Positions 1-19,027 of a stretch of 64,000 bases of DNA are shown in pieces; positions within the stretch are counted from its first letter, which is position 1; each line of letters begins with the position of its first letter. The notes below the pieces were generated by a model that was not told where the DNA came from, searched no databases, and worked only from the letters and a program-made list of their open reading frames with translations. This stretch comes from an uncultured Rhodospira sp. (GTDB lineage: Bacteria; Pseudomonadota; Alphaproteobacteria; Rhodospirillales; Rhodospirillaceae). A program made the position numbers and the translations under genes. Location of the stretch: contig NZ_CAKZOT010000091.1 in assembly GCF_937138205.1 (NCBI RefSeq), positions 1-64,000 on the forward strand, read 5' to 3'.

Positions 1-1006
1 AGACGATCTTGCCCGGATGGACGTTCTTCTTGGTCCAGCTCATCTCGGAGACGTGCACCAGACCCTCGACGCCCGGTTCCAGCTCCACGAAGGCGCCGTA
101 GTCGGTGATGTTGGTCACGCGGCCCGCGAACACCGTGCCGACCGGGTACTTGGCGGCCACGCCCTCCCACGGATCGGCCTCCAGCTGCTTCATGCCCAGG
201 CTGATGCGCTGGGTGTCGGGGTTGAAGCGGATCACCTGCACGCGCACCGTCTGGCCGATGTTCAGGGCCTCGGTCGGGTGGTTGATGCGCTTCCACGAAA
301 TGTCGGTGACGTGCAGCAGGCCGTCGACGCCGCCCAGGTCGACGAAGGCGCCGTAGTCGGTGATGTTCTTGACCACGCCGTCCAGGATCTCGCCTTCCTT
401 CAGGCGTTCCAGCAGCTTGGCCCGCTCCTCGGCGCGCGTCTCTTCCAGCACCGAACGGCGCGAGACGACGATGTTACCGCGCGTGCGGTCCATCTTCAGG
501 ATCTGGAACTCGAACGGCTGCCCCATCAGCGGGGTGACGTCGCGCACCGGGCGGATGTCCACCTGGCTGCCGGGCAGGAAGGCCATGGCGCCGGACAGGT
601 CCACCGTGAAGCCGCCCTTGACCCGGCCGAAGATCTGCCCCTTGACCCGCTGGCCGTCGTTGTAGGCCTTCTCCAGCTCGTTCCAGGCTTCCTCGCGGCG
701 CGCCTTGTCGCGCGACAGGATGATGTTGCCGTCCCGGTCCTCGTAGCGCTCGACGAAGACGTCGATGGGATCGCCGGGCCTGAGCTCGGGGTCCTCGCCG
801 GCCTTGGTGAATTCCTTCAGGGGCACGCGGCCCTCGGACTTCAGGCCGACATCGACGACGATGTGATCGTTGCGGACGGCGATCACCGTGCCTTTGATGA
901 CGGTGCCTTCAAGATTGGTGTTTTCGCCCAGGGTTTCGTTCAGGAGCGCCTCGAAGTCTTCCTTGAAGTCCTCCGTGGCGGGCATTTGGGTGGCGGCGTC
1001 GGCCAT
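1..1006 (-). CDS. rpsA: 30S ribosomal protein S1, 3' end beyond the left edge
   Basis: S1 binds mRNA on the 30S subunit and helps initiation on structured leaders. The reverse strand reads from an ATG at 1006 for about 335 residues and runs off the window. It opens with MADAATQMPATEDF and then shows successive S1 (OB-fold) repeats: GTVIKGTVIAVRNDHIVVDV (domain 1), VKGGFTVDLSGAMAFLPGS (domain 2), NITDYGAFVDLGGVDGLLH (domain 3) and NITDYGAFVELEPGVEGLV (domain 4). The repeated NITDYGAFV signature makes the call firm. It lies directly downstream of cmk on the same strand, the usual alphaproteobacterial order. The Shine-Dalgarno before the ATG is weak (AGGA about 10 nt upstream). At least a third of the protein lies outside the window. 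Confidence 0.97.
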   Translation of the reverse strand, partial: MADAATQMPATEDFKEDFEALLNETLGENTNLEGTVIKGTVIAVRNDHIVVDVGLKSEGRVPLKEFTKAGEDPELRPGDPIDVFVERYEDRDGNIILSRDKARREEAWNELEKAYNDGQRVKGQIFGRVKGGFTVDLSGAMAFLPGSQVDIRPVRDVTPLMGQPFEFQILKMDRTRGNIVVSRRSVLEETRAEERAKLLERLKEGEILDGVVKNITDYGAFVDLGGVDGLLHVTDISWKRINHPTEALNIGQTVRVQVIRFNPDTQRISLGMKQLEADPWEGVAAKYPVGTVFAGRVTNITDYGAFVELEPGVEGLVHVSEMSWTKKNVHPGKIV

Positions 1007-1098
1007 GGGGTCCGTATCCTTTCGGGTGGTCTGATGATATTCCGGCCAGCCGGTTGGGTCCGGCGGTCTTTGTGGCAGGGATTTCGGTCGGGTAAACC

Positions 1099-2496
1099 TC
1101 AGTCGCTGGATGAGCCGCAGGCGCCACGCGCGCGCGCCCCGGCCAGGACCAGCGCGGCGGCCAGGGCGCCGTCCTGGTCCAGATCGGTGGTGTCCAGTAC
1201 GACGGCATCGTCCGCGGCAACAAGCGGTGCAACGCCGCGAGACGAATCCCGGGCGTCACGGTCCTTCATATCCTGAAGAACGCGCGACTCTATAACCTCC
1301 AAACCGCGCGCCCGCAACTCCAGAAAACGCCGATGCGCCCGCGCTTCCGGGCTTGCCGTGACGAACAGCTTCACCGGCGCACCCGGACAGACCACCGTGC
1401 CGATGTCCCGCCCGTCCAGCACGGCGCCGGCGGTGCCTGCCGGCGGTTTGGCCGCGAACGCGCGCTGGAAGTCGAGCAGCGCGGCCCGCACCGCCGGCAT
1501 CGCGGCCACGCGCGAGGCGGCGTCGCCGGCGGCCTCGCCGCGCAGGTCGGGGTTCGACAGGTCCGACGGTGAAAGCGCGCGCGCCGCCCGTTCGGCTGCC
1601 GCCGGGTCGTCGGGATCGCCACCCGCCCGGCGCACGGCCCATCCCGTCGCGCGGTAGAGCAGGCCGGTGTCCAGATAGGCCAGACCCAGCCGCACCGCCA
1701 GGGCGCGGGCCAGTGTCCCCTTGCCGGCCGCCGCCGGGCCGTCGATGGCCACCACCAGGGAGGGCGCGCCGTCCGACCAGTCCCCCAGCCATGCCGGCGT
1801 CGCCGGCCAGTTGGCGGCCAGGGCAGCGGCCGTGGTCTCGGACTCGCCCGTGACGGTCAGGCGGACCCGCGCGCCCGCAGGCGCGACCGCCACCGGCACA
1901 GCGAACGCCGCCAGCAGGTCCGCCACCACGGCGGCGAGGCCCGGGGGCAGGGGTGCGCTGGTGTGGCCGGGTGCCGTCAGGCCGACACACAGCCGGGCCA
2001 GGGCCAGCGGCCAGGGTTCTGCCGTCGGATCCTCGGGGGCCGACGGCGCCATGGGCCGGGCGCGGCCACGCAGGGTGACGGGAGTCCCGGTGCCGGCCGC
2101 CATCACCGTGGCACCGCAGCCCTCCAGCAGCGCGGCCAGGCCGGCCGGCAAGGCCGCGCCGGTCACGACGGCGGTCAACGGATGTCCCGCCAACAGGCCG
2201 CACAGCGGGACCAGCGCGCCGGCGGTCTCGACCCGCAGCGGCGCCTCGGGCTCGCGCAGGCCGCCGAGGCCGCGCCCGTCGATGGTCGTCCAGGCCTTCG
2301 CGCCGGTCTCGCTCATCCGGGCGCCCAGGGCCGCCGCCAAGTCAGTGGTCCCCGGCGGCGCCACGGCCGCCGGCAGCCGGCTGGTGCCTGCTGTCGCGGC
2401 GGCCAGAAGCACCGCCAGGGTGGAGGCGGCGGCGGTCTCGTCGGCGGACAGGCCGAAGGGAGAAAAGACTCCGCTGTGGGCGGGCATCTCGGTCAC
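1099..2496 (-). CDS. cmk: Cytidylate kinase with an N-terminal degenerate EPSP-synthase-like domain
   Basis: The C-terminal 220 residues (about 246-465) are a normal cytidylate kinase, which phosphorylates CMP and dCMP. They carry the P-loop DGPAAAGKGTLARAL, YLDTGLLYRATG, the LDGRDIGTVVCP motif and an arginine-rich C-terminal lid. Family members are usually about 210-230 residues; here 245 extra residues precede them. That extension resembles the first half of AroA: GRGLGGLREPEAPL (75-88), TAGALVPLCGLLAGHPLTA (91-109), PVTLRGRARPMAP (139-151), GLTAPGHTS (172-180) and VRLTVTGE (211-218) fall in EPSP-synthase order. The substrate-binding signatures (PGxKS near the start, GTTAR, RRRPM) are missing. 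In related bacteria aroA sits just upstream of cmk, so I infer that the decayed aroA 5' half is now fused in frame. Start is the GTG at 2496; an ATG three codons in is also possible. A later kinase-only start cannot be excluded. Confidence 0.9.
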   Translation of the reverse strand: MTEMPAHSGVFSPFGLSADETAAASTLAVLLAAATAGTSRLPAAVAPPGTTDLAAALGARMSETGAKAWTTIDGRGLGGLREPEAPLRVETAGALVPLCGLLAGHPLTAVVTGAALPAGLAALLEGCGATVMAAGTGTPVTLRGRARPMAPSAPEDPTAEPWPLALARLCVGLTAPGHTSAPLPPGLAAVVADLLAAFAVPVAVAPAGARVRLTVTGESETTAAALAANWPATPAWLGDWSDGAPSLVVAIDGPAAAGKGTLARALAVRLGLAYLDTGLLYRATGWAVRRAGGDPDDPAAAERAARALSPSDLSNPDLRGEAAGDAASRVAAMPAVRAALLDFQRAFAAKPPAGTAGAVLDGRDIGTVVCPGAPVKLFVTASPEARAHRRFLELRARGLEVIESRVLQDMKDRDARDSSRGVAPLVAADDAVVLDTTDLDQDGALAAALVLAGARARGACGSSSD

Positions 2497-2781
2497 GGGT
2501 CGGGCTCCGGCGGCGTTGGAAAACGAGGGTGCGCCGGCGGTTTATCACGGCGGCACACGGGGCGACAGGGGAACGGCGCCGGCGGCGCATCAAACCGCGC
2601 GAAGGGCGTTGACTTGGCCCGGCGATGATGGCAAACGCGCCACTCTTGCCGGTCGCGTCCGCCCTTGCGTCCAGGGACCGCCCCAGGGTGGAGGCGCGAT
2701 GGCCGGCCGGAAGGAGCGATTGGGCCAGACGGGCGCCTCCGTTACCCGATCGCCGGGTGCAGAGCTTCAAGGAGATCCAGG

Positions 2782-3150
2782 GTGGCCAAGCCGGAATGGG
2801 GAACCAAACGGACGTGCGGCTCCTGCGGGGCCCGGTTCTATGACATGCGGCGCCAGCCCATCGTCTGTCCGAAGTGCGACGCGCTGTACGAGGAAGAGGC
2901 TCCGGCCCGGCCCCGGCGTGTCAAACCGGCCCCGCCGGAAAAGAAGCCGAAGCCCGCGCCGGTGGTCGAGGAGGCCTCGGATCTTGAAGAGTCCGCCGAG
3001 CTGGAAGACGCCGATCTCGACGAGACCAACCTCGACACCGACGACGACAAGACCGAGGACATGATCGAGGACGCGTCGGATTTGGGCGAGGACGACGAGG
3101 ACATGGCCGAGGTCATCGAGCACCTGGACAGCGACACCGACGACACCTGA
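2782..3150 (+). CDS. FYDLN/TIGR02300-type zinc-ribbon acidic protein
   Basis: A 122-residue protein starting at a GTG at 2782 behind an AAGGAG Shine-Dalgarno at 2769-2774; the longer open frame upstream lacks such a site. The N-terminus AKPEWGTKRTCGSCGARFYD has two cysteines that pair with a later CPKC to form a zinc ribbon (about residues 12-35). A Pro/Lys-rich hinge follows, then a very acidic tail of Glu/Asp blocks. This layout is typical of the alphaproteobacterial FYDLN acid family; here the motif reads FYDM. Function is not established. It is divergent from cmk-rpsA and sits upstream of tRNA-Ala, matching its frequent location near rpsA-cmk-aroA. Confidence 0.9.
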   Translation: MAKPEWGTKRTCGSCGARFYDMRRQPIVCPKCDALYEEEAPARPRRVKPAPPEKKPKPAPVVEEASDLEESAELEDADLDETNLDTDDDKTEDMIEDASDLGEDDEDMAEVIEHLDSDTDDT

Positions 3151-3329: not shown

Positions 3330-3405
<76 letters not shown>

Positions 3406-4485: not shown

Positions 4486-6354
4486 TCAGGGACGGCCCTC
4501 GCAGGAAGGCTGAGCGCTGCGATGTTCCGCGATCCAGGCGGAGCCCCGTTCTTTGTACCGGCGGCGTTGGTCGCGTCCGACCTTCTCCTGGAACACAGCG
4601 AGAAACGCGTCCAGGTGGGGCCGCAGCGGATCCTCGGCGCCGGTCAACGCGTCGGCGATGACCAGGAACAACTGGGCTGTTTCCGCCGAAGGAGCCACCC
4701 CGAGCCCGGCCGCGTAGGCCTCCGCGACGGCCAGGGCCGCCCGCCCGCTGCCATTGGCGGCGGCACGTTCCAGCAGGTCGAGCCCCTTGGCCTCGTCGCG
4801 CGCGACGCCCCCGAGCCCTTCGAGATAAACAAACCCCAGGTCGGTAGCGGCGTCGGGAAGGCCGATGGCGGCGGCGTCCTCCAAGTGCGGCAAGGCATCC
4901 TTGACCTTGCCCTGCCGCAGAAGCTGTGTCGCCTTGCGTTGCGCGGCGCAAGCTCGCCGAACCGCCTGGTCGGCATCCGGTTCCGTCAGGAACGAACGCA
5001 CGTGCGACGGGGTCGGCGGCGCGATGGGCGCCGGCTCCGGTTCGGCGCGCCCGTTCCCTTGGCCATGCAGCAGGGCGAGCAGACTCCCGCCGGGGGTTGG
5101 CGGCGGTGTCTCAGTGGGCCCCTGGCGTTGGGAGGCGGACGGTTGGTCGGATGCGGTGGACGACCCGGAGGCCTTTGGCGATTCGGTCTCAGCCGGCGGT
5201 TCGGTCTCGGCCAGCGGTGCGGGCTTCGGCGGCGGTTCGATCTCTTCAACCGGATCGTCCAACGGCTGCGGGCGATCCAACGCGGCCAGCCGATCCCAGT
5301 AAACGGACAAATGGCGCGTTACGATTTCGTTGTAGCGGTCAGACTCTTTGAGCGCCTTCAGCCCGGCATTGAAGCGGTAGAGGAAAGTGGTGCCGCGCGG
5401 GTGGGTCTTTGAAATCAAAACGTGCAGGCCCTGGATCGAGATGGGCTGGGGCAGTTCCTTGACCTGTTCGTTCAGGCCCATCTCGCGCACGGTCAGACGC
5501 CCCAGGAACTCGTTGAGCGTCACGCCGTCCACCGCGCCGTCGACAAGCATCCGGAAACAGGCCTCGACCGAGTCGGGCTGCTCAAGCCGGATCCGGTTTT
5601 CGCTCAGCCAGCGCCGGCCCTCGCGGTCCAGGTCATGGGTGTAGTATCCATTCGGCCGGCAGATGGTGAGGCCTTCGATGTCACTGTCCGTCTCGAACCG
5701 GAGGTCGGACCCGGCTCGCACGAACAGCAGGACCAGCATCTCGAAGATCTGATCAGAGAAATGGAAATTCTGGCAGCGCTTGTGGTCGCGGTTCTCCTCG
5801 CAGTTCGGGCGCAACCAGGGAAAGCCCACGTCAAACGTCTTGTCGTCGAGAAGCGGAAACAGGTGCTTTGACCAGTCGTCTTCCCAGGACACCGAGAATG
5901 TCACCGGCGACGGGCTGACCTCGAAGGCGGCGTTGACCAACTCGGTGACCAGACCGCCGCCGAGCCAGTCCCGATCCGTGAACGGGGCATAGCCGCCCCC
6001 CGTCAGGCACCGCAACTGGGCCTGCCCCTCGCGCCGAAGGGGGGTCGGGTCGGCCCGCCCTTCCCCATCCAGACAAGGGATCGTCAGCCGCGTTCCGGGC
6101 AACAGGATCGATGGATTCCGCCCTATTTCAGTCTGGTTCGTGTAGTAGATTGATGACCATCGATCTTGATCACCATAGTACAGGACCGCGAGCGAGCGCA
6201 GCGTCTCGCCCCGCTCGGCGACGTGCACATGACCGCAGGTTTCGGCGTGCGCCTCGGCGTCCAGGATTCCGCTCGCCACAATCGCGACGAGTCCGCCGAT
6301 GGCCCACGCGAGACGGCGTCCGTCGTGACAAAAGCTGCCGAGACGCACCTGCAT
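4486..6354 (-). CDS. Exported LysM / solute-binding (SBP_bac_3-like) / Sel1-repeat protein
   Basis: About 622 residues. Start chosen at the ATG at 6354, six bases behind a GGAG; an adjacent ATG at 6357 is too close to it. Order: signal peptide (1 to about 37, ending near AHAET); LysM (about 43-95, HVAERGETLRSLAVLYYGDQ); a type-3 periplasmic solute-binding fold (about 105-360) with FDVGFPWLRPNC and NGYYTHDLDREGR; a Pro/Glu/Ser-rich linker (about 365-455); and Sel1-like helical repeats (about 490-600, with GLPDAATDLGFVYLEGLGG). LysM should hold it to peptidoglycan, the binding domain presumably senses or captures a small polar ligand, and Sel1 repeats usually bind proteins. The ligand is unknown. 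No permease or kinase is adjacent. The next gene upstream is a shorter paralogue. Expected location: periplasm. Confidence 0.85.
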   Translation of the reverse strand: MQVRLGSFCHDGRRLAWAIGGLVAIVASGILDAEAHAETCGHVHVAERGETLRSLAVLYYGDQDRWSSIYYTNQTEIGRNPSILLPGTRLTIPCLDGEGRADPTPLRREGQAQLRCLTGGGYAPFTDRDWLGGGLVTELVNAAFEVSPSPVTFSVSWEDDWSKHLFPLLDDKTFDVGFPWLRPNCEENRDHKRCQNFHFSDQIFEMLVLLFVRAGSDLRFETDSDIEGLTICRPNGYYTHDLDREGRRWLSENRIRLEQPDSVEACFRMLVDGAVDGVTLNEFLGRLTVREMGLNEQVKELPQPISIQGLHVLISKTHPRGTTFLYRFNAGLKALKESDRYNEIVTRHLSVYWDRLAALDRPQPLDDPVEEIEPPPKPAPLAETEPPAETESPKASGSSTASDQPSASQRQGPTETPPPTPGGSLLALLHGQGNGRAEPEPAPIAPPTPSHVRSFLTEPDADQAVRRACAAQRKATQLLRQGKVKDALPHLEDAAAIGLPDAATDLGFVYLEGLGGVARDEAKGLDLLERAAANGSGRAALAVAEAYAAGLGVAPSAETAQLFLVIADALTGAEDPLRPHLDAFLAVFQEKVGRDQRRRYKERGSAWIAEHRSAQPSCEGRP

Positions 6355-6430
6355 CATGATCTCCAACCCTCTTCGCATCACAGCGGAGCGCCGTAAAAGT
6401 ATTCGGCCAGCGTCCGTCGCATTCGACGCG

Positions 6431-7971: not shown

Positions 7972-9213
7972 ATGACTCCCTGGCTGACGGTCGTCGGCAT
8001 CGGCGAGGACGGCTTGGCGGGCTTGGGCAAGGCCGCGCGGCGGGCCGTGCGGGAGGCGCCCCGTTTGATGGGCAGTCCCCGCCACCTGGGCCTGGTGCCC
8101 GACATCCCCGGGCAGGTCCGGGAGCCCTGGCCCACGCCCTTCGCCGAAGGATATGACCGCGTGCTGGGCCACCGGGGCACCCCGCTGTGCGTGCTGGCCA
8201 GTGGCGACCCAATGTGGCACGGGCTGGGCGCCGCCCTGGCGCGGCACGTTCCCCCCGCCGAGATGCGCGTCTTCCCCGCGCCTTCGTGCGTGTCGCTGGC
8301 GGCGGCGCGGCTGGGCTGGGCGCTGCACGCGGTGGCCACCCTGCCCCTGCACGGCCGGCCCGTGGCCACGCTGCACCCGCTGCTGCACGCCGGGGCGCGC
8401 CTGCTGCTGCTGGCGGATAACCGCGACACCCCGGCCCAGGTCGCAGCCCTGCTGACGGCGCGCGGCTTCGGTGCCAGCGCCCTGAGCGTGCTGGAGCACC
8501 TGGGCGGACCGCGCGAACGCCGCCTGGACGGCACCGCCGCCGCCTGGGCGCACCCGCCGGGCGCCGACCTGGCGGTGATCGCGGTGGCCTGTGCCGCCGA
8601 CCCCGGCACCGACGGCGGCCTGTCGCGGTTGGCAGGGCTGCCCGACGAGGCCTTTGACCACGACGGCCAGATCACCAAGCGCGACGCCCGCGCCATCACG
8701 CTGGCGCGACTGGCGCCGCGTCCGGGCGAGCTGTTGTGGGACGTCGGGGCGGGCTGCGGATCCATCGGCGTTGAATGGATGCGCGCCGATGCCACGTGCC
8801 GGGCCATCGCCATCGAAGTCCGCGCCGACCGTCGCGACCACATCGCCCGCAACCGCGAGGCCCTGGGTGTGCCGGGACTGGTGATCATCGCCGGCGAGGC
8901 CCCGGCGGCGCTGGACGGCCTGGAGCCGCCGGACGCGGTATTCCTCGGCGGTGGTGTGACCGTACACGGTCTGGTCGAGGCCTGCTGGGTGGCGCTGAAA
9001 CCCGGCGGCCGGTTGGTGGCCAACGCCGTCACCCTGGAGGGCGAGGCGGCGCTGGTGGCCGCGCGGGCGCGCCTGGGCGGCAGCCTGACCCGGCTGTCGG
9101 TGGCGCAGGACCGGCCGCTCGGCGGCTTTCGGGGATGGCACCCGGCCGTTCCGGTCACGGTTTTCAGCGTCACCAAGCCCCACGCCGATCCCACCGGGGA
9201 GGCCGCCGCGTGA
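7972..9213 (+). CDS. cobL: Precorrin-6Y C5,15-methyltransferase (decarboxylating)
   Basis: A bifunctional enzyme of corrin-ring synthesis that methylates C5 and C15 of precorrin-6B and removes a carboxyl. 413 residues, the usual fused length. The N-terminal CbiE half (about 1-195) has [15 protein letters not shown] and the tetrapyrrole-methylase motif [10 protein letters not shown]. The C-terminal CbiT half (about 205-400) has [33 protein letters not shown] (SAM site) and AIEVRADR. A weak AAGAG site precedes the ATG. It overlaps a ruined cobF by 4 bp and is followed by convergent cobU, so this is part of a cobalamin cluster. The gene itself looks intact. Confidence 0.95.
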
Positions 9214-9544
9214 AAACCCTCCTGCTCATCGGCATCGGCCCGGGCGATCCGACGCTGTACGACGGCACCTTGCAGACCCTGCGCGACCTGATCGACGAGG
9301 GCCGCGAGGACCTCGCGGTCGAGGTGATCCCCGGCATCACCTGCATCCAGGCCCTGACCGCCAAGCACCGCATTCCGCTTAACCGCGTGTGCGAGGCGGT
9401 CGTCATCACCACGGGCCGGCAGATCGAAAGCACCGATCCGGCGGCGGTTCACAACAGCATCGTCATGTGGATGCGCGCGACGCGTTCCAGCGGCTGCGCG
9501 GGTCACGGTTCCGTGCGACTGCGGCGGCTCAGCCAAAGCCCTAA
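9210..9544 (+). pseudogene. cobF: cobF (precorrin-6A synthase) remnant: internal deletion plus frameshift
   Basis: CobF makes precorrin-6A and releases acetate in the aerobic B12 pathway; it is normally about 250 residues. The GTG at 9210 overlaps the cobL stop. The frame starts with the methylase motif [13 protein letters not shown] and passes straight into TLYDGTLQTLRDL, which in CobF belongs after the second motif WGDPSLYD. About 100 residues between the two GDP motifs are missing. VIPGITCIQALTAKHRIPLN and VVITTGRQ follow. Near 9465 the sequence ATGTGGATGCG, compared with an expected ATGCTGGATGCG, shifts the frame; the shifted frame resumes as DARDAFQRLRG and then stops at 9544 against cobU. 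Three separate lesions make function very unlikely. Confidence 0.8.
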
Positions 9545-10071
9545 TCCTTCAACGTCATCGGCAGGCCGGCGGCGATGAACAGCACCCGCTCGCACGCCGC
9601 CGCCACGCGCTGGTTGAGAAGCCCGGCCTCGTCGCGGAAGCGCCGTCCCAGCGGCGTGTCCGGCACCAGGCCCAGGCCCACCTCGTTGGCCACCAGCACT
9701 ACCGGCGCCGACCGGTCGGACAGGGCAGCCAGCAGGCGGTCGGTGTGGCCGTCGATGTCGGCGTCGTCCAGCAGCAGATTGGTCAGCCACAACGTCAGGC
9801 AGTCCACCAGGACCGGCCGGTGCGCGTGCTCGGCCAGGGCGGCCGGCAGGGCGACCGGGACCTCGACCGACTCCCACGCATCGCCGCGCCGCGCCTGATG
9901 GCGGCGCACGCGGGCGTCCATCTCCGGATCGTCGCCCCAGGGGCGGAAGGTGGCGACATAGAGCGGCGTGGCGCCGGCCGCCCGCGCCGCCTCTAGAACG
10001 AGCGCCTCGGCGTGGCGGCTCTTGCCGGAGCGGGCACCGCCCAGGATCAACGTGCGGGGGGGAAGGGGCAT
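9541..10071 (-). CDS. cobU: Adenosylcobinamide kinase / cobinamide-phosphate guanylyltransferase
   Basis: Phosphorylates adenosylcobinamide and transfers GMP to give AdoCbi-GDP in late B12 assembly (called CobP in the aerobic-pathway nomenclature). 176 residues, family-typical. P-loop GGARSGKSRHAE is at the N-terminus; RRHQARRGDAWESVE contains the guanylylated histidine region; LVDCLTLWLTNLL and the C-terminal NEVGLGLVPDTPLGRRFRD are diagnostic. It converges on the cobF remnant, and the two reading frames end within 4 bp of each other. It lies downstream of rpsD on the same strand. Confidence 0.95.
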   Translation of the reverse strand: MPLPPRTLILGGARSGKSRHAEALVLEAARAAGATPLYVATFRPWGDDPEMDARVRRHQARRGDAWESVEVPVALPAALAEHAHRPVLVDCLTLWLTNLLLDDADIDGHTDRLLAALSDRSAPVVLVANEVGLGLVPDTPLGRRFRDEAGLLNQRVAAACERVLFIAAGLPMTLKD

Positions 10072-10091
10072 CGCGTTCCCTCAACACGAAC

Positions 10092-10114
10092 GGGGCGCGC
10101 CATCGGCACGCCCC
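10092..10114 (-). terminator. Hairpin after rpsD
   Basis: GGGGCG (10092) pairs with CGCCCC (10109), with an inner GCC/GGC, one mismatch and a 3-nt loop. It stands between the rpsD stop and the cobU start, both on the reverse strand. No T-run follows, so it may be only a weak terminator. Confidence 0.35.
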
Positions 10115-10145
10115 GCCATCGCAAGACACTGGTGCGGCGATCCGC

Positions 10146-10760
10146 TTAGCGCGAGTAGTACTCGATCACCAGGTTCGGTTCCATCTGCACCGGATACGGC
10201 ACGTCGGCCAGCTTCGGCTGGCGCAGGAAGGTGCCGGTGGTGCCCTTGTCGTCCATCTGGATGTAGTCCGGCACGTCGCGTTCGGGCGAGCCGATGGCCT
10301 CCATCACCAGGGCCATCTCGCGCGACTTTTCCTTGACCTCGATCACGTCGCCCTCGCGCACCTGGTACGAGGGGATGGTCACCGTGCGGCCGTTGACCTT
10401 GATGTGGCCGTGGTTGATGAACTGGCGCGCGGCGAACACCGTCGGGACGACCTTCATGCGGTAGACCACGGCGAGCAGGCGGCGTTCCAGCAGGCCGATC
10501 AGGTTTTCGGAGGTGTCGCCCTTACGGCGCGTGGCCTCCTCATAGGTGCGGCGGAACTGCTTTTCCGAGATTTCGCCGTAGTAGTTCTTCAGCTTCTGCT
10601 TGGCCATGAGCTGCACGCCGAAGTCGGAGGGCTTGCGGCGGCGCTGGCCGTGCTGGCCGGGGCCGTACTCACGGCGGTTGATAGGGCTCTTCGGGCGGCC
10701 CCAAAGATTGACGCCCAGGCGGCGGTCGATCTTGTACTTGGCGGAATGACGCTTGCTCAT
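10146..10760 (-). CDS. rpsD: 30S ribosomal protein S4
   Basis: Primary 16S rRNA-binding protein that nucleates 30S assembly. 204 residues from the ATG at 10760 ([16 protein letters not shown]); six in-frame codons upstream are not part of the family. [17 protein letters not shown] and the S4 RNA-binding domain (about 93-155, [29 protein letters not shown]) are clear. The C-terminus [10 protein letters not shown] is standard. It stands alone, as rpsD often does in alphaproteobacteria. The RBS is weak (AAGGTG about 11 nt before the ATG). Confidence 0.98.
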
Positions 10761-11010
10761 ATGGCGGGACACCTTCATCGAGGTTGTTGTCTGGGCGGCC
10801 GCTGTTGGTTCTTTTCGGGCGGCCTGTTCGTGTCCCGGGTGCCACGCCTCTTCGGGGAAGAGGCAGGGTCGGCGCGATCCCGCCCCTGTCGGACGGGATC
10901 GGGCGGCACGGGCCAGACACGCGCGCGTCGGCCAACCCTTTCGGGCTCCGCCTGTCCGGGAAGGAAAGGGCGTGTCTACGCCACACGCGCGGCGGGGTCA
11001 AGGTGGGGAT

Positions 11011-11202
11011 TCAAGGTTTCCCGATGAGGGCAATGGCCTTGCGCCGCACCGCCGCCAGTTCGGCCGGCGCGGCCCGGCCCTTCGGCGCCGCCTGACTGAG
11101 CACCAGCGCGGGCCGGCGGCCGCGTTGCTCATGACCGGCCTGGGGATCGAACGCCAGCCAGACCACGTCCCCCGCGTCGGGAACGAACCGGTCCGCCATC
11201 AA
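11011..11202 (-). pseudogene. MazF-type toxin with an in-frame internal deletion
   Basis: A 63-codon frame starting at 11202 and overlapping the antitoxin stop. Its first 35 residues match the MazF start: FVPDAGDVVWLAFDPQAG, then HEQRGRRPALVLS. It jumps directly to PKGRAAPAELAAVRRKAIAL and IG, which resembles the last 20 residues of MazF (compare E. coli KGTVAPEELQLIKAKINVLI). Some 50 residues, including the core beta-sheet and catalytic Arg/Thr region, are gone while the frame is kept. MazF proteins are about 110 residues. I expect no ribonuclease activity. The upstream antitoxin is complete. Confidence 0.7.
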
Positions 11203-11441
11203 AGGCTCTCGCCTCCGACCGGCGGGCCGAAGTCCACCGGGTCGTGCCGATTCTCCGGCGTGATGGCGTCAATCAGGGCATCGATATCGGGGGCGGCGTC
11301 GGGCAGCGGCTCGACGAGGATGCGCCCCTGCTCCGCACGGATGTCCACCGGCTGGTCGGGGCGCAGGTTGGCCTCTCGCAGAACGGCAGCCGGAATCCGT
11401 ACTGACGCGATGCTCCCCCGGAGTCGAACGACACCTCGCAT
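11199..11441 (-). CDS. MazE/AbrB-type antitoxin
   Basis: 80 residues. The N-terminus carries a swapped-hairpin AbrB DNA-binding domain: SIASVRIPAAVLREANLRPD, then QPVDIRAEQGRILVEPLPD. The C-terminus HDPVDFGPPVGGE is the usual toxin-binding tail of MazE proteins. Antitoxin and truncated toxin overlap by 4 bp, as in an operon. The LRG motif near residue 8 differs from the usual WGNS. A 6-bp palindrome lies 32 bp upstream and may be its operator. With its toxin gutted, it may persist as an orphan antitoxin. Confidence 0.75.
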   Translation of the reverse strand: MRGVVRLRGSIASVRIPAAVLREANLRPDQPVDIRAEQGRILVEPLPDAAPDIDALIDAITPENRHDPVDFGPPVGGESL

Positions 11442-11472
11442 ACCTGATCCTCGACCGTGCGGTTCATCCGAT

Positions 11473-11485
11473 CCCTATCATAGGG
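11473..11485. promoter_or_regulatory. Candidate MazE operator palindrome
   Basis: CCCTAT-C-ATAGGG, a perfect 6-bp inverted repeat centred on one base, 32 bp upstream of the antitoxin ATG. MazE-type antitoxins autoregulate through short palindromes at this position; binding here is inferred. Confidence 0.35.
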
Positions 11486-11517
11486 CATTCCGCGCCGCGT
11501 GGAAATCCGGCGCGCGC

Positions 11518-11600
11518 TCACACCACCCCCGGCAGCCACGGCGCCGACCACGGGAGCGCCAGGATCAGCGCCAATGGGCCGATCCTGGAAGAGCGGCCAC
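11518..11600 (-). pseudogene. Duplicated 3' end of a TRAP large-subunit gene (dctM fragment)
   Basis: The reverse strand reads GPLALILALPWSAPWLPGVV then stop, close to the intact DctM end GRVALILALPWLALWLPRLV 530 bp away. The DNA also aligns over about 75 bp (CGGCAGCCAC, AGCGCCAGGATCA and similar blocks). The two tails flank the Excalibur gene, so a segmental duplication or an insertion between repeats probably happened here. No start or upstream part remains. Confidence 0.6.
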
Positions 11601-11614
11601 CCGCCCGCCAACGT

Positions 11615-11983
11615 TCAGCCGGACGGAAATGCCTCGCAGGCGATGCCGTCGTTGTCGGCGTCAAGCCACGGCCAATACCCTGGCTCGCCACGATCAGCCG
11701 GGGCCACATCGACGGACCGGGCATAGGCGCATCCCGGCATGGCAGCGATGTGCCGCAGGGTTTGCCAGGGCGGCCACGGCGACAGCACGGACATCCACAA
11801 ATACCCCGCCAAAACCAGGAAGACCGGAATTGCAATCCGGGACAGCCGCAGCAGCAGCCTGCGACGGCGCGCCGGCCGTTCAATCCGGTGCGAGACGCGC
11901 TCGAACCGCTTGCGCAACGCCCGTGCTTTGCGTTCACGGGCATCCGGATCGGAGGGTGTGTTGATGAGCCTCAGGCGTGGCAT
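11615..11983 (-). CDS. Membrane-anchored Excalibur-domain protein
   Basis: 122 residues. A basic N-terminus (RERKARALRKRFERVSHRIE) precedes one transmembrane segment (about 46-68, LSRIAIPVFLVLAGYLWMSV). The C-terminal about 40 residues form an Excalibur calcium-binding domain: MPGCAYARSVDVAPADRGEP, then WPWLDADNDGIACE with the DxDxDGxxCE loop. Such domains are extracytoplasmic, often next to nuclease domains; no nuclease is present here. Predicted topology is N-in with the Ca-binding part in the periplasm. It sits between two copies of the dctM tail on the same strand. Function is unknown. Confidence 0.75.
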   Translation of the reverse strand: MPRLRLINTPSDPDARERKARALRKRFERVSHRIERPARRRRLLLRLSRIAIPVFLVLAGYLWMSVLSPWPPWQTLRHIAAMPGCAYARSVDVAPADRGEPGYWPWLDADNDGIACEAFPSG

Positions 11984-12055
11984 TCCGGGACCTCGGTGGT
12001 AGCCAGAACCAGCGTCCCATCTGTCGATGGATCGGGACGTCCCCCACGATCGCGA

Positions 12056-13441
12056 TCATACCAAGCGCGGCAGCCACAGCGCCAGCCACGGCAGCGCCAG
12101 GATCAACGCCACGCGGCCGAGCTCGACGGTGAAGAACGGCAGCACACCGCGAAAGATGGTGCCCATGGGCACGCCTGGGCTGACGCTGCGAATGACGAAG
12201 ACGTTCAGCCCGACGGGCGGCGTGATCAGGCCCAGTTCCACCACGATCAGGGCCAGGATGCCGAACCAGATCTTCAGGTCCTCGGTGGTCATGCCGAACC
12301 CCGCGTTGGCGGCCGTCACCCAGTCGCCGCCGTTCAACTCCACCAGCACCGGGAACAGGAACGGCACCACCACAAGGATCATGGACAGCGAGTCCATGAA
12401 ACACCCCAGCACGATCAGCACCAACAGAACCCCCGCCAGGATCAGCCAGGGGTCGGCGGCGCCGGTGGCGGCCATCTCGGCCAGGGCCGCCGGCAGACCG
12501 CTGCGGGCTAAAAACCCTTTGAGCACCTCGGCGCCGAACAGGACGAAATAAATCATGCCGCCGGTGACCGCCGTGTCGCGCACGGCGCGGGCGATCTCGC
12601 GCCGGCCCAGACCGGTGCCGGTGAGTGCTTTCAACGCCACGCCGTACGCCAGCACAGCGAACACGCCGACCGCCGCCGCCGGGGTGGGCGTGAACAGCCC
12701 AAGGCCCAGGCCCAGCACGATGGCCCCGAAGATGAGCACCACGGGCACCAGCCGGCGGAGCGCCAACCGCCGCGCCGCCGGATCGGGGCGCGGCACACCC
12801 TCGGCCAGGCTCGGATCAAGCCGTACGCGCACGGCGATCACGGCCACGAACAGCGCCACCGCCAGCACACCCGGCACGATGGCCGCCTGGAACATCTCGA
12901 CCACCGAGGCCTCGACGACGATGGCGTAGATGACCAGGGCGACGGACGGCGGAATCAGGATCCCCAGCGTGCCGCCCGCCGCCAGGGCGCCGGTGGCCAG
13001 CCCGTCGGCGTAGCGCAGGCGCTTCAGTTCCGGCAGGGCAACCCGCCCCATGGTGCTGGCCGTGGCCAGCGACGAGCCGCACACGGCGCCGAAGCCGGCG
13101 CAAGCCATCACCGCCGCCATGGCCACGCCGCCGCGCAGGCGCCCGACCAGCACGTTCAGACCCTGGAACAGGTCACGGCTCAGGTTGGCGTGGGCCGCCA
13201 GATAGCCCATGAGGATGAACAGCGGCACCACCGAGAGCGTGTAACTGCTCACCACGCTCCAGGTCAGCGACTTGAATTGGGCCAGATAGGGCTCGAAGCG
13301 CAGGAACGGCGCGGCGATCGACAGCGCCCAATTGCCGCCGATCCCCACCATCACCATGGCCAGCGCCACCGGCAGACGCAGGGCGATCAGCAGAAACAGG
13401 ACCGCCAGGCCGGCCAGCCCGATCAGCTCGCGCTCACCCAT
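12056..13441 (-). CDS. dctM: TRAP transporter large permease subunit
   Basis: The 12-TM subunit of a tripartite ATP-independent periplasmic transporter, which imports carboxylates or related anions using an ion gradient. 461 residues from the ATG at 13441, which overlaps the dctQ stop by 8 bp; the open frame reaches 13465 but MGERELIGLAGLAVLFLLIA is the natural start. Diagnostic are ALRLPVALAMVMVG, SFTLS-like YTLSVVPLFILMGYLAAHA, GFGAVCGSSLATASTMG, GGTLGILIPPSVALVIYAI and a second GMTTEDLKIWFGILALIVVE, then GLITPPVGLNVFVI. The periplasmic receptor DctP is not in the window, so the substrate cannot be assigned. Confidence 0.92.
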   Translation of the reverse strand: MGERELIGLAGLAVLFLLIALRLPVALAMVMVGIGGNWALSIAAPFLRFEPYLAQFKSLTWSVVSSYTLSVVPLFILMGYLAAHANLSRDLFQGLNVLVGRLRGGVAMAAVMACAGFGAVCGSSLATASTMGRVALPELKRLRYADGLATGALAAGGTLGILIPPSVALVIYAIVVEASVVEMFQAAIVPGVLAVALFVAVIAVRVRLDPSLAEGVPRPDPAARRLALRRLVPVVLIFGAIVLGLGLGLFTPTPAAAVGVFAVLAYGVALKALTGTGLGRREIARAVRDTAVTGGMIYFVLFGAEVLKGFLARSGLPAALAEMAATGAADPWLILAGVLLVLIVLGCFMDSLSMILVVVPFLFPVLVELNGGDWVTAANAGFGMTTEDLKIWFGILALIVVELGLITPPVGLNVFVIRSVSPGVPMGTIFRGVLPFFTVELGRVALILALPWLALWLPRLV

Positions 13442-14039
13442 CGGCGCCGTCCGGGGTGCCGGCATGGGGGTAGTGGCTGCCGGCCGACACCGATCCCGGC
13501 GGCGCGGCGGCCATCACGGCGGCGGTGGCGCTCCACGCCAGCAGGGCGGCGATGCCCGGCAGCCAGAACGGCCACTCCGGCCACGACCGCACGCTGGACA
13601 CGACGCCGTCGGCGCGCGCCTCGGCCATGCCCCAGATCATCGACACCCCCAGGAACAGCGCCAGCAGCGCCGTCAGGACCAACGCCAGCCGGTCCACGGC
13701 GGCGTTGAAGGCAGGCGGGGCGCGCAGGGTGAACAGGTCCACCGACACATGCCCGTAGCGCAACTGGCAGTACGGCAGGAAGGCCAGCGCGCCGCCGCCG
13801 ATCAGCAGGGCGACCACCTCCTCGTACCCGGCCAGCCCCGGCACCGACCCGCCCAGCGGCCGCGCCAGCGCATCCAGCGCGAATCCGGTCACGTTGATCA
13901 CGGTCAGCCCGGTGATGAGCAGCAACACCGCCCCGCCGTACAGGGCGAGCGTGATGGCCAGCGGGCGCAGCAGGCGCTCGCGCGCCGCCGCCAGCACGCC
14001 GCCGGGGCGGGGATGGTGAGCCGTGGGTGTCTTGATCAT
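13434..14039 (-). CDS. dctQ: TRAP transporter small permease subunit
   Basis: 201 residues with four hydrophobic helices (about 25-50, 70-95, 115-135, 155-175), the DctQ pattern. GLTVINVTGFALDALARPLG, VPGLAGYEEVVALLIGGGAL and LPYCQLRYGHVSVDLFT match the family core. It is translationally coupled to dctM by an 8-bp overlap. The C-terminus is a hydrophilic Gly/Pro-rich tail. It acts with DctM and a missing DctP. Confidence 0.88.
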   Translation of the reverse strand: MIKTPTAHHPRPGGVLAAARERLLRPLAITLALYGGAVLLLITGLTVINVTGFALDALARPLGGSVPGLAGYEEVVALLIGGGALAFLPYCQLRYGHVSVDLFTLRAPPAFNAAVDRLALVLTALLALFLGVSMIWGMAEARADGVVSSVRSWPEWPFWLPGIAALLAWSATAAVMAAAPPGSVSAGSHYPHAGTPDGADG

Positions 14040-14102
14040 GGCGCCCCGTCATGCGCGACCGGCGCCAAGGCGTCAAGGCGTCAAGGCACGGGTGCCCCGC
14101 CG

Positions 14103-14426
14103 TCACGCGATGCCAAGGAACAGCGCCAGCGAGCGCGTGACGGCAATCATGCTGTCGTCGTCGAGGCGGCCGATCACCTGACCCACCTTGTCGCGCCCGA
14201 CGGCCTGCGGTTTGTCCACCATGATCTGGGACAGTTTCAGCAGTCCGTTCTCCGGCGAAGGCTCGACGGTCAGGCGGTAGAGTGGCGTGTTCCGGATCTC
14301 GCCGGTGATGGGGAGAATGACCACCGAAGGGAGTTCGGCGAACGCTTCGGACTGGATGATGAGGGCCGGTCGGGGCTTCCCGTAGTCGCCCCGCAGGGCA
14401 ACGGTCACGACCGTCCCACGCGTCAC
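14103..14426 (-). CDS. MazF/PemK-type toxin
   Basis: 107 residues of the PemK fold, an endoribonuclease that cleaves mRNA. RGTVVTVALRGDYGKPRPAL, then IIQSEAF, forms strand 1 to the K-P-RPA-lIiQ motif. VVILPITGEIRNTPLYRLTV and GLLKLSQIMVDKPQAVGRDK are also characteristic, and VGQVIGRLDDDSM ends the domain. The size is normal and no lesion is seen, unlike the MazF at 11.0 kb. The ATG overlaps the antitoxin stop by 4 bp. Confidence 0.88.
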   Translation of the reverse strand: MTRGTVVTVALRGDYGKPRPALIIQSEAFAELPSVVILPITGEIRNTPLYRLTVEPSPENGLLKLSQIMVDKPQAVGRDKVGQVIGRLDDDSMIAVTRSLALFLGIA

Positions 14427-14635
14427 GTCCAGTCCTCCGTCTCGGCCACGCGTTCAAGCCAGTCAATGATCTCCTGTTCATGCGGGTCATCGCGTAGCGC
14501 GAGACACTGCCGCCGGCACTCCTCGGCGAAGCCGGGCTGGCGGGTGTCGGGCACCCAGATCTGGACCGGGCGCAGGCCCTGGGCGCGCAGGGCGGCGCGA
14601 CGCTTGCGCACGCGTTCGGCGGATGACATGGCCAT
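14423..14635 (-). CDS. DUF3018/MazE-like antitoxin
   Basis: About 70 residues. MSSAERVRKRRAALRAQGLR followed by PVQIWVPDTRQPGFAEECRR is the DUF3018 antitoxin signature, the usual partner of PemK toxins. The C-terminus HEQEIIDWLERVAETEDW is acidic, as in toxin-binding tails. Two ATGs at 14638 and 14635 follow a GGAGG; 14635 gives the better 5-nt spacing. Coupled to the toxin by ATGA overlap. Confidence 0.85.
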   Translation of the reverse strand: MAMSSAERVRKRRAALRAQGLRPVQIWVPDTRQPGFAEECRRQCLALRDDPHEQEIIDWLERVAETEDWT

Positions 14636-14658
14636 CATGGCCTCCGTGACATCATTTC

Positions 14659-14677
14659 GCTACATGTAACATAGCGC
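14659..14677. promoter_or_regulatory. Candidate operator of the PemK-type module
   Basis: GCTACATGTAACATAGCG contains the palindrome TACATGTA (14661-14668) inside a CGCTA/TAGCG inverted repeat. It lies about 25 bp upstream of the antitoxin start, where autoregulated toxin-antitoxin promoters have their operator. Inference from position and symmetry only. Confidence 0.4.
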
Positions 14678-14783
14678 GCGGAGCCTTCGGCGTCAACGCG
14701 ACCCCCTGCCCGGTTGCTCCCTTGCCAGGGAGTCCCCAGCCCGCCATTCTCCGGCCGGTTTTCACGAACACGGGACACGCACG

Positions 14784-16181
14784 ATGACGGCGACGGACAC
14801 CACCACCGGCGTGGACGCGGCAAAGGCCGAGGCCGAGGGCTCCGGGCTGTCGCCGTGGTCGGCGCTGGTCGGCGTGCCGCATGTGGATGTCGCCCCGCAC
14901 CACGCGCCCATCACCGCCGACATCGCGCTGCCCGGCTCCAAGAGCTACACCAACCGCGCCCTGCTGTGCGCCGCCATGGCCGACGGGCGCTCGACCCTGA
15001 CCGGCCTGCTGCGCTCCGACGACAGCTATTGGTGCGCCGAGAGCCTGCGCCGCCTGGGCGCCGGGGTCACCGTCGAGGGCACCACCGCCACCATCGACGG
15101 CCTGGGCCGGCGCCGCCCCAACCCGGAGGCAAGCCTGTACATCGGCTCGGCCGGCACCACGGCGCGGTTCCTGCCCGGCTTGCTGGCGGCCGGCGGACCC
15201 GGGCGGTTCACCCTTGACGCCAGCCGGCAGATGCGCGGCCGGCCGATGGCGCCGCTGCTGCTGGCGTTGCGGCAACTGGGGGCGGACATCACCTGCCCGA
15301 ACGTGCCGGACGCCCCGCCCTTGGAGATCGAGGGGGTCTCGTTGCTGGGCGGACCGGTGCGCATGTCCGGCGCCGTCTCCAGCCAGTTCATCAGCGGGGT
15401 GTTGATGGCCGGGCCGCTGGCGCTCAATGGCGTGCACGTGATGATCGAGGACCATGTGGTGCAGAAGGACTACGTGGCCATGACCCTGGACATGATGGAG
15501 ACCTTCGGCGCCATCATCGAGGCCGACGAGGACCTGGAGGACATGCGGGTCGAGACCGGCGGCTATCGTCCGGCCGACGTGATGCTGGAGGCGGATGCCT
15601 CGACGGCGACCTATTTCCTCGCGCTGGCGGCGGTGACCGGCGGGCGGGTGACGGTGACCAACGTGGGCACGACGACGCGCCAGCCGGACCTGCGCTTCAT
15701 CGACATCCTGGAGCGCATGGGCTGCAAGGTGATCCGCGAACCGGCGGCGGTGACCGTGGCGGGACCGCCGGGCGGATACCTGAAAGGCGGGTTCGATGTG
15801 GACATGCGGCCGCTGTCCGACGCGACCCTGACGCTGGCGGCCATCGCGCCCTATGCCGACGGGCCGGTGGCCATCCACAACGTGGCCCACATCCGCAAGC
15901 ACGAAAGCGACCGCATCGGCGTCATGTGCGCGGCCCTGGCAGCGTTGGGCGTGCCGGTGGACGAGCGCCCGGACGGCATGACGATCCATCCGGCGCGGCC
16001 CACCCACGGCGTCATGGAGACGCACGACGACCACCGCGTGGCCATGGCGCTGTCGGTGCTTGGCGTGGCCGGGGAGGGCGTGCGGCTGCTGGACCCGGGC
16101 TGTGTCTCCAAGACCTGCCCGCCGTTCTTCGACCTGCTGGCCGGGTTGGGCGTGGGGGTTGAGGTGGCAAGCCCGGAGTAG
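14784..16181 (+). CDS. aroA: 3-phosphoshikimate 1-carboxyvinyltransferase (EPSP synthase)
   Basis: Sixth step of the shikimate pathway, joining PEP to shikimate-3-phosphate. 465 residues. The Lys/Ser signature LPGSKSYTNRALLCAAMADG (about 50-69), GSAGTTARFLPGL, the MRGRPMAPLL loop, MSGAVSSQFISGVLMAGPL, IRKHESDRIGVMCAALAAL and THDDHRVAMALSV all look intact, so it should be active. An extra N-terminal stretch of about 35 residues is Ala/Glu-rich. It lies alone between two toxin-antitoxin loci rather than upstream of cmk, where a decayed AroA-like half remains. The sequence style (PGSKSYTNRA, SSQFISG) differs from the relic, so I suspect a separate origin. Its stop codon lies in a GTAGGGTGCG repeat end. 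Confidence 0.95.
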   Translation: MTATDTTTGVDAAKAEAEGSGLSPWSALVGVPHVDVAPHHAPITADIALPGSKSYTNRALLCAAMADGRSTLTGLLRSDDSYWCAESLRRLGAGVTVEGTTATIDGLGRRRPNPEASLYIGSAGTTARFLPGLLAAGGPGRFTLDASRQMRGRPMAPLLLALRQLGADITCPNVPDAPPLEIEGVSLLGGPVRMSGAVSSQFISGVLMAGPLALNGVHVMIEDHVVQKDYVAMTLDMMETFGAIIEADEDLEDMRVETGGYRPADVMLEADASTATYFLALAAVTGGRVTVTNVGTTTRQPDLRFIDILERMGCKVIREPAAVTVAGPPGGYLKGGFDVDMRPLSDATLTLAAIAPYADGPVAIHNVAHIRKHESDRIGVMCAALAALGVPVDERPDGMTIHPARPTHGVMETHDDHRVAMALSVLGVAGEGVRLLDPGCVSKTCPPFFDLLAGLGVGVEVASPE

Positions 16182-16335
16182 GGTGCGTTCGACCGCCGCG
16201 ACGCGGCGGGCAACGCACCGCCACCTCTCGGCCAGACGGTGCGTCGCGCCCCGGCCGTTGCCGCGGGGAGAGGCACGGGTCTGTAAGACGCCGAGCATTT
16301 CATGAAACGCCGGCCGGGCTGCGGACGCACCCTAC
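16178..16335. repeat. Inverted-repeat element with GTAGGGTGCG termini
   Basis: GTAGGGTGCG at 16178-16187 is the exact reverse complement of CGCACCCTAC at 16326-16335. The 158 bp has no coding potential. Such ends are common in intergenic palindromic repeats of proteobacteria. The left end supplies the TAG stop of aroA, so the insertion may have trimmed the aroA C-terminus. Confidence 0.6.
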
Positions 16336-16348
16336 GCCGCTTGCTGGG

Positions 16349-16693
16349 CTAACCCTGTCCCTCTTCCGGAAATCGCAGGCCACGCAACCGGGCTTCGATA
16401 TCCATCCGGCCGTGGAACACTTCGACCAGTTCGAGCGTATCACGGGTCTCCCGCAGGATCAGGTAGTGCTCGCCTTCCCGGTAATAGGTGAGCCCCGTTA
16501 CGTCCCGTTTGTCCTGCACAAGCACCGCACAGGGGCGCGGACGCGGTGGCAGACCGGAGGCGAGCGCCTCAAGGCGGCTGACAAGCTGGCTAGCGTATTT
16601 TTCGGCTTGGACATCGCCAAAGGTCTCAATGGTCCATTCAAGGATATCCTCAAGGCTGGCCAGGGCGGCCGGCGCATACATGATCCGCTTCAT
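16349..16693 (-). CDS. ParE/RelE-superfamily toxin
   Basis: 114 residues. MKRIMYAPAALASLEDILEW, then TIETFGDVQAEKYASQLVSR, is the ParE N-terminal helix hairpin; GLTYYREGEHYLILRETRDT and LELVEVFHGRMDIEARL form the sheet and C-terminal helix. ParE toxins poison gyrase; RelE relatives cut mRNA, and sequence alone cannot fully separate them. The ATG overlaps the antitoxin stop by 4 bp. Length is normal. Confidence 0.85.
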   Translation of the reverse strand: MKRIMYAPAALASLEDILEWTIETFGDVQAEKYASQLVSRLEALASGLPPRPRPCAVLVQDKRDVTGLTYYREGEHYLILRETRDTLELVEVFHGRMDIEARLRGLRFPEEGQG

Positions 16694-16959
16694 GCGTTGC
16701 GTCTGGCGCGGGCCGCGTCAAGCACGGCGCCCAGCACCTCTCGCGGTTCACCCGTGATGCCCTCTCCGCGATCAAGCTGGTCGAGGGCGATGCTGATCCG
16801 ATCGCTGACCTCGTCCAGCGCATGGCGGTGTTTCAGGGCGCGCAGCCCGGCCCGCATGACTTCGCTGGCATTGGCGTAGGCGCCGGAGGCCACCAGGTCA
16901 TCGACAAAGGCGCTGAGTTCCGGCGTAAGCGCGACATTGCGGGCGTGGCTGCTGGGCAT
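16690..16959 (-). CDS. ParD-type antitoxin
   Basis: 89 residues from the ATG at 16959, which has an AAGGAG 8 nt upstream; the open frame extends further but without a better site. RNVALTPELSAFVDDLVASG, then AYANASEVMRAGLRALKHR, is the ribbon-helix-helix of ParD. The C-terminal half is charged and presumably wraps the toxin. A GCCC/GGGC inverted repeat at 16984-16998 upstream is a possible operator. Confidence 0.85.
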   Translation of the reverse strand: MPSSHARNVALTPELSAFVDDLVASGAYANASEVMRAGLRALKHRHALDEVSDRISIALDQLDRGEGITGEPREVLGAVLDAARARRNA

Positions 16960-17069
16960 GGCGTTGCTCCTTCTCACCCTGTCGCCCAAATATAGGGCAC
17001 ATGGTGGCCAGGATCGACACCCATGACCGGCTGCGGCGGATTGGCGCGCGGGTGAAGGGAGACTCCGCC

Positions 17070-17846
17070 CTATCCCCCCGGCGGGACGGCGGCGCCGATC
17101 TCGCCAAAGCTCTGCACCAAGCTGCCGATCACTAGGTACCAGCCGTCCACCAGCACGAAGAACACCAGCTTGAACGGCAACGCCAGCATCATCGGCGGCA
17201 GCATCATCATGCCCATGGACATCAGCACCGAGGCAATCACCATGTCGATGATGACGAAGGGCACATAGATCAGGAACCCGATCTCGAACGCGCGGCGCAG
17301 CTCGCTGATGACAAAGGCCGGCACGATGGCCGCCAGCGAGGCGTCCTCGGCCGTGGTGCCCGGCGGCGCGTCCGACAGGTCGATCATCAGCGCCAGGTCC
17401 TTCTCCCGCGTATGGCGCAGCATGAACGCCCGCAGCGGCACCACCGCGCGGTCGAAGGCCTCGAACTCGTCGATCTGCTCGTTCATCAGCGGAACGATGC
17501 CGGCCTCCCAGGACTCTTCCAGCGTCGGCGCCATGATGAACATGGTCATGAACAGCGCCAGCCCCATCATCAGCATGTTGGGCGGCGTCGTCTGCGTGCC
17601 CATGGCGTGGCGCAGGATGGAGAACACGACCACAATGCGCGTGAACGAGGTGGTCATGAGCAGAATGCCGGGGGCCACCGACAGCACGGTGATCAGCCCG
17701 ACCAGCTGAACGACGCGCGCGGTCATGGTGCCGTCACCGTCGCCCAGGTCGATGGACAGCTGTTGCGCCCAGGCCGGGCCGGCGACCATCAGGCCGACGG
17801 CGGCCGCCGCCGCCAGGACCAGGGAGAGAAGGACCGCCCGCCTCAT
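17070..17846 (-). CDS. fliP: Flagellar type III export apparatus protein FliP
   Basis: Core of the FliPQR export gate in the flagellar basal body. 258 residues with a cleavable N-terminal signal (to about residue 27, PAWAQQ), as usual for FliP. Diagnostic: LITVLSVAPGILLMTTSFTR and IVVVFSILRHAMGTQTTPPN, MTMFIMAPTLEESW, and the C-terminal IIDMVIASVLMSMGMMMLPP followed by MMLALPFKLVFFVLVDGWYL. Coupled to fliO by ATGA overlap. FliQ and FliR are not in view. Confidence 0.97.
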   Translation of the reverse strand: MRRAVLLSLVLAAAAAVGLMVAGPAWAQQLSIDLGDGDGTMTARVVQLVGLITVLSVAPGILLMTTSFTRIVVVFSILRHAMGTQTTPPNMLMMGLALFMTMFIMAPTLEESWEAGIVPLMNEQIDEFEAFDRAVVPLRAFMLRHTREKDLALMIDLSDAPPGTTAEDASLAAIVPAFVISELRRAFEIGFLIYVPFVIIDMVIASVLMSMGMMMLPPMMLALPFKLVFFVLVDGWYLVIGSLVQSFGEIGAAVPPGG

Positions 17847-18954: not shown

Positions 18955-19027
18955 CCCCGCCCGCCCTGTGAGTTCGGTGTCCGGTCTTCCCGCACCTTAC
19001 CCACTCGGCCGAGCGAGGCCAACGGTT

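Follow-up and report, generated by a model that had tools for sequence, protein, structure and literature searches.

A conserved remnant of an apparently displaced EPSP synthase, upstream of or fused to cytidylate kinase in Rhodospira and Roseospira

Introduction

In Pseudomonas syringae, part of 5-enolpyruvylshikimate-3-phosphate synthase (EPSPS, there named AroF) has been deleted from a TyrA-AroF fusion, a stand-alone EPSPS was probably acquired laterally, and the authors raised the possibility that what was left might turn into a regulatory domain (PMC1173090, a paper cited throughout for the portions available to us). Here we analyse a comparable locus in the first 64,000 nucleotides of contig NZ_CAKZOT010000091.1 from an uncultured Rhodospira sp. 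(assembly GCF_937138205.1; this whole stretch is called the window). An open reading frame (ORF) at 1099-2496 joins half of an apparent EPSPS (AroA), hereafter the relic, to a cytidylate kinase (CMP kinase, Cmk). The original prediction, made from the DNA letters alone, read this half as what survives of an aroA displaced by a complete copy elsewhere in the window.

The two cases share the loss of an EPSPS part within a tyrA/EPSPS/cmk/rpsA gene string and the presence of a second EPSPS elsewhere. New relative to the portions of the P. syringae account available to us are Cmk as the partner, the retention of a whole N-terminal domain, its occurrence in six genomes of one genus, and the measurement of selection on it (PMC1173090). 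Another alphaproteobacterium with a displaced EPSPS is Agrobacterium tumefaciens, whose divergent EPSPS gene is unlinked to cmk and rpsA and for which lateral transfer was suggested; the available portions of the paper mention no cmk-side remnant there (PMC1173090). An inactive shikimate-pathway domain is also retained in the Aro1 fusion of Candida albicans, where another enzyme can do the step of the inactive DHQase domain and the domain mediates homodimer formation, but this is a fungal protein in which a whole domain carries active-site substitutions (PMC9074039, likewise seen in part).

The bifunctional AroA-Cmk family PRK11860 (662 positions) likewise places AroA N-terminal to Cmk in one polypeptide. 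Both of its parts are complete, whereas the window protein has half an AroA without the catalytic residues and matches the model over residues 248-451 (the Cmk part) only, at 168.6 bits against a cut-off of 943; it is thus no member of that family. The structures 1p88 and 3ti2 show the same domain free-standing, cut from whole enzymes according to their titles, whereas the relic is natural and lacks the ligand residues. Among the best matches of the relic are class II EPSPS, namely Coxiella burnetii AroA and CP4 (the class of entries beyond Coxiella and Vibrio, CP4 among them, is our assumption from general knowledge), which have the C-terminal domain and active-site residues that the relic lacks. 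A literature search found no published account of an AroA relic joined to Cmk.

Results

The features on which the argument turns are the following.

1099-2496, minus strand: relic-Cmk fusion ORF, 465 aa, GTG start
1762-2496, minus strand: relic of the N-terminal domain of AroA (class II EPSPS), residues 1-245 of the fusion, from profile and fold
1099-1758, minus strand: Cmk part (CMP kinase), from residue 247, stop codon included, from PF02224, TIGR00017 and fold
14784-16181, plus strand: stand-alone full-length AroA, class I-like, from profile and TIGR01356

The C-terminal part is a CMP kinase by family score and by fold. Residues 249-442 match PF02224 (E 1e-51), the part scores 159.7 bits against a TIGR00017 cut-off of 135.55, and its fold matches 2cmk (Z 20.8).

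Residues 1-245 are harder to place by single-sequence searches. On its own, the window relic gave weak EPSPS matches to PRK14806 (E 1.2e-5) and to the CP4 EPSPS structure 2pqd (E 1e-4), and none to PF00275 or TIGR01356. We compared six genomes of the Rhodospira/Roseospira genus, which belongs to the purple bacteria, namely the window, Rhodospira trueperi, Roseospira marina, R. navarrensis, R. visakhapatnamensis and one metagenome assembly. All six relics match the EPSPS part of PRK14806, one matches PF00275 and two match TIGR01356 at E<=0.01, and they fall short of a curated EPSPS score. A profile built from the six relics reached solved EPSPS structures at a best E of 1.7e-17, with Coxiella AroA at E 3e-16, CP4 EPSPS at about 1e-13 and Vibrio cholerae AroA at E 0.0014-0.0078. 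Coxiella AroA is a class II enzyme and V. cholerae AroA a class I enzyme (PMC9145961, for the portions available to us).

An AlphaFold2 model computed from the six relic sequences only is confident (predicted local distance difference test, pLDDT, 86.2; predicted template modelling score, pTM, 0.86), with pLDDT <50 at residues 1-11 and 243-245. It consists of the three beta-alpha-beta-alpha-beta-beta units of the EPSPS N-terminal domain, with the first strands of units one and three unassigned. The top Foldseek hit is CP4 EPSPS (E 1.3e-12). In VIA-align the model superposes on Coxiella AroA 3roi with Z 22.9 (root-mean-square deviation 2.4 over 204 residues), on residues 20-231 of 3tr1 with Z 22.5, and on the isolated EPSPS N-terminal domains 1p88 and 3ti2 with Z 18.0 and 18.7. 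Coxiella, CP4 and similar entries score Z 21-23; plant, Vibrio and E. coli entries score 17-19. By profile and by structure the relic is thus closer to class II than to class I. As modelled, the 'half' AroA is one whole globular domain of EPSPS, and the descent of residues 1-245 from a class II EPSPS is confirmed at the level of profile and predicted fold; the landmarks that the original prediction had picked out by eye do align in order with intact AroA. In trees the relics have very long branches and their placement among intact AroA is unreliable, so the case for vertical descent rests on gene position and class II similarity.

The catalytic signatures are gone, as had been claimed. We aligned the relics with 30 rows of intact AroA, 29 of them distinct, which came from the family, the order and named relatives. 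At 15 N-domain columns invariant in all 30, the invariant residue survives in 2 of the 90 relic cells, and 7 of the 90 are gaps. These columns include KSxxxR, NxGTxxR, the R of RPM, SAQxK and RDH; their invariance is computed here, and we take their residues to be those of substrate binding and catalysis. With so few functional cells retained, catalysis and substrate binding should be lost, and to judge from these residues the relic should not be an EPSPS enzyme. The second, C-terminal EPSPS domain is missing altogether: homology stops at the domain border and is followed by Cmk or by a stop codon. Of 43 columns invariant among the relics, 29 carry the majority residue of intact AroA, a glycine in 12 cases. 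The other 14 have a new residue; for example, the Arg of KSxxxR is replaced by Leu and the Lys of SAQxK by Ala.

Codon-level comparisons support purifying selection on the relic as a protein. Across the 15 pairs of species, identity is 0.58-0.78 at second codon positions and 0.43-0.54 at third positions. We fitted a codon model whose synonymous branch lengths were taken from cmk and aroA and kept fixed, on a topology set by hand with the same unrooted shape as the relic tree. The ratio of nonsynonymous to synonymous rates (dN/dS, omega) of the relic is 0.39 (0.36-0.42), against 0.17 for cmk and 0.07 for aroA, and omega=1 is rejected with twice the log-likelihood difference (2dlnL) at 309. When the relic is divided lengthwise into four blocks, omega is 0.31-0.47; it is 0.19-0.40 for three pairs of fused species and 0.38 (2dlnL 70) for the unfused pair. 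Shifted-frame controls give omega >1 for relic, cmk and aroA. A free codon-model fit was set aside as saturated (omega 0.017, tree length 61). A ratio near 0.39, and of 0.38 where the relic is unfused, indicates more than a passive leader, and with the kept fold it bears out the idea that the 5' half of aroA survives as a conserved domain.

The relic sits where aroA belongs. The next gene downstream fixes the position:

2-1006, minus strand: rpsA (ribosomal protein S1), named from its translation, extending beyond the window and marking the aroA-cmk-rpsA position

Alphaproteobacteria are quite uniform in the order EPSPS gene, cmk, rpsA, according to the portions available to us (PMC1173090), so the relic occupies the proper place of aroA. 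Among 73 family genomes we found 67 cmk matches over the cut-off, and 57 of them have an AroA match no more than about 1 kb upstream on the same strand, as expected for this position. Six of the ten remaining matches belong to the genus genomes; of the others, two have AroA 11 kb off, one has it on a different contig and one is interrupted by the end of its contig. In a family member with a full AroA on another contig (G016, locus L087), cmk lies, by reading, beside a MeaB-like GTPase gene; aroA moved off there without leaving a relic detectable by profile search. A profile search of the DNA upstream of cmk found nothing in G016 and G014, two family genomes with a moved aroA.

Displacement of aroA is borne out by the second gene. 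AroA 14784-16181 is full length (414.3 bits against a TIGR01356 cut-off of 287.25), as had been proposed, and it has what we take to be the active-site motifs. All six genus genomes carry a stand-alone AroA of a type unlike the relic. The AroA of the five congeners is 79-90% identical to AroA 14784-16181, whereas full-length AroA of other family members is 26-36% identical. Its closest solved structures include plant enzymes, followed by DGT-28 and Vibrio cholerae AroA. A direct comparison of this AroA with the relic was null (best E 0.23); the two are different EPSPS types. The neighbours of the new AroA are not conserved: when window positions 9000-26000 were compared with flanks of up to about 8 kb in the five congeners, one gene besides AroA matched, in one genome. 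A lateral origin would be the natural reading.

In each of the six genus members the replacing AroA reads GSAGT at a motif where two AroA from other phylum genomes (L098, L099) read GNAGT; the search pattern missed a third (L100). The Asn of GNAGT is presumably a ligand contact in E. coli EPSPS. By this motif the genus AroA may be an unusual subtype.

The relic is present in all six genus genomes; fusion to Cmk holds in four of them, and in the other two the relic is a separate ORF just upstream of cmk. Its stop overlaps the cmk ATG (ATGA) in R. visakhapatnamensis, and 51 bases separate the two in the metagenome assembly. The four fused relics form one clade (support 99/100). In family members outside the genus, AroA and cmk matches lie side by side yet apart, which suggests that the unfused state came first; if it did, the fused clade is most simply explained by one fusion.

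Outside the genus, no comparable relic match occurs among 297 genomes of the order (a sample that includes five of the six genus genomes). In this sample 266 genomes match the relic profile at E<=1e-12. Scores are 302-352 bits in the five genus members, and the highest elsewhere is 103 bits, as is usual for ordinary AroA. A collection of named genomes gave 17 matching loci. The five from congeners span E 6e-65 to 4e-11 and the remaining twelve span E 1e-12 to 2e-4; eight of the twelve yielded an intact AroA N-domain. The ranges overlap, so E-value alone does not set the weakest congener apart. From a 143-genome sample of the class we also chose by eye, among the matches listed, 18 genomes in which AroA is present and none matched directly before cmk. 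A profile search of the DNA upstream of cmk found the relic in none of these 18, and five hold the end of an aroA there; two congener loci served as positive controls (302 and 319 bits). As the selection was made by eye, this is a check and not a census.

Two further features lie beyond the relic:

2782-3150, plus strand: FYDLN_acid gene (PF09538), adjoining the relic on the side away from rpsA
3330-3405, plus strand: tRNA-Ala (GGC)

Long ORFs at 1721-3064 (plus strand, 447 aa) and 17-1276 (plus strand, 419 aa) run opposite relic-cmk and rpsA and are most likely spurious in this GC-rich sequence. A 631-aa ORF at 4486-6381 (minus strand) has a Sel1 repeat in Pfam; by eye it has a LysM-like start and a solute-binding-protein-like middle, neither of which is matched in Pfam at E<=0.001.

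Discussion

From the computed homology and fold, the loss of catalytic residues, the genus-wide presence, the different type of AroA and the purifying selection, we infer the following order of events. Before the members of the Rhodospira/Roseospira genus diverged, EPSP synthesis would have passed to a stand-alone AroA belonging to another class. The original class II gene, at its ancestral site ahead of cmk and rpsA, would have shed its C-terminal domain together with the residues for ligand binding and catalysis, and the N-terminal domain that was left would have kept its fold and remained under selection. At first it may have stayed a distinct ORF upstream of cmk, probably with coupled translation, as two species still have it, and on one branch it would have been joined covalently to Cmk. 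The relic would most likely serve as a non-catalytic domain, packing against Cmk and influencing how stable Cmk is, how it assembles or how it is regulated, in keeping with the structural or regulatory role first suggested. Taken whole, this history and role as a Cmk partner domain are, in our judgement, probable.

A model of the 465-residue fusion has a pTM of 0.85, from which we tentatively read a definite relative placement of relic and Cmk, possibly with packing between them. More tentatively, and at somewhat less than an even chance, the EPSPS domain may have been recycled into an accessory subunit of CMP kinase, acting in trans from a coupled upstream gene before it was fused on one branch, with the emptied active-site face remade as an interface.

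Several observations weigh against the displaced-aroA account, and some of them favour the view that the relic is a functionless passenger whose frame stays open because cmk is translated from, or coupled to, its start. Divergence of the relic is fast: amino-acid identity from species to species is 41-62%, where Cmk has 67-83%. Its share of charged residues is low (0.13-0.16 including His, against a mean of 0.22 in intact N-domains) and its GC content exceeds that of cmk (0.76-0.80 against 0.72-0.75). All of these are marks of weak constraint. The fixed-tree fit assumes equal synonymous rates in relic, cmk and aroA, synonymous distances are near saturation, and halving the tree raises omega to 0.79, still below 1, with omega=1 rejected at a 2dlnL of 19.5. 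The alignment behind the fusion model is small, with four of its eight rows fused, and the aligner scattered the tail of one unfused relic over Cmk columns. No donor of the new AroA was found among 299 phylum genomes: 39 match at E<=1e-70, the window included, and the best others are 41-43% identical, one of them from the same class. The lack of a clear Cmk start in the fused genomes would also enforce an open frame on a passenger. An open frame alone would not hold amino acids in place, however, as the excess of second-position over third-position identity suggests, nor would it account for an omega of 0.38 where the relic is unfused or for a fold so well predicted from the relics alone. We therefore consider a pure passenger unlikely.

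The relic could instead act on a partner other than Cmk, for example the new AroA, and stand beside cmk by ancestry only; its separate ORF in two species and the new residues at 14 invariant columns, which could form a new interface, fit this, but its fusion to Cmk throughout one clade of four and the pTM of the two-domain model make it distinctly improbable. The title of 1p88 indicates that an isolated EPSPS N-terminal domain undergoes substrate-induced structural changes, and the relic might by the same token still bind shikimate-3-phosphate and link CMP kinase to flux through the aromatic pathway. No relic keeps the residue of intact AroA at the KSxxxR, SAQxK and RDH columns, to which we ascribe binding; with the ligand residues gone, such a sensor is very unlikely. 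A translation start of Cmk near residue 246 in the fused genomes, which would leave the upstream frame separate or untranslated and make the fusion an annotation artefact, has the least to recommend it and we give it hardly any credence. In-frame GTG or TTG codons do occur at the junction: the window has GTG codons near residue 246, which lack an evident Shine-Dalgarno sequence, and in R. trueperi an in-frame ATG lies 11 codons ahead of the Cmk part. No junction start position is common to all four fused genomes, however, and a GTG shared by two of them falls within the first Cmk strand. The two unfused species, in contrast, start cmk with a plain ATG and an AGGA 12-13 bases upstream, a long spacing, and the window relic has GGAG 8 bases before its own GTG start. 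Since selection also acts on the codons of the upstream frame, a start just before residue 246, on which the relic would have foundered, is not supported.

If the displaced-aroA account with Cmk as the partner is right, half of a dead enzyme would have become a regulatory or structural domain across a genus, with the unfused and fused stages both extant. Six related genomes show a displaced enzyme leaving behind a conserved non-catalytic domain, and the same genomes capture two neighbouring genes becoming one protein. They make testable the suggestion made in 2005 for P. syringae, as given in the portions of the paper available to us, that a truncated EPSPS remnant may turn into a new regulatory domain (PMC1173090).
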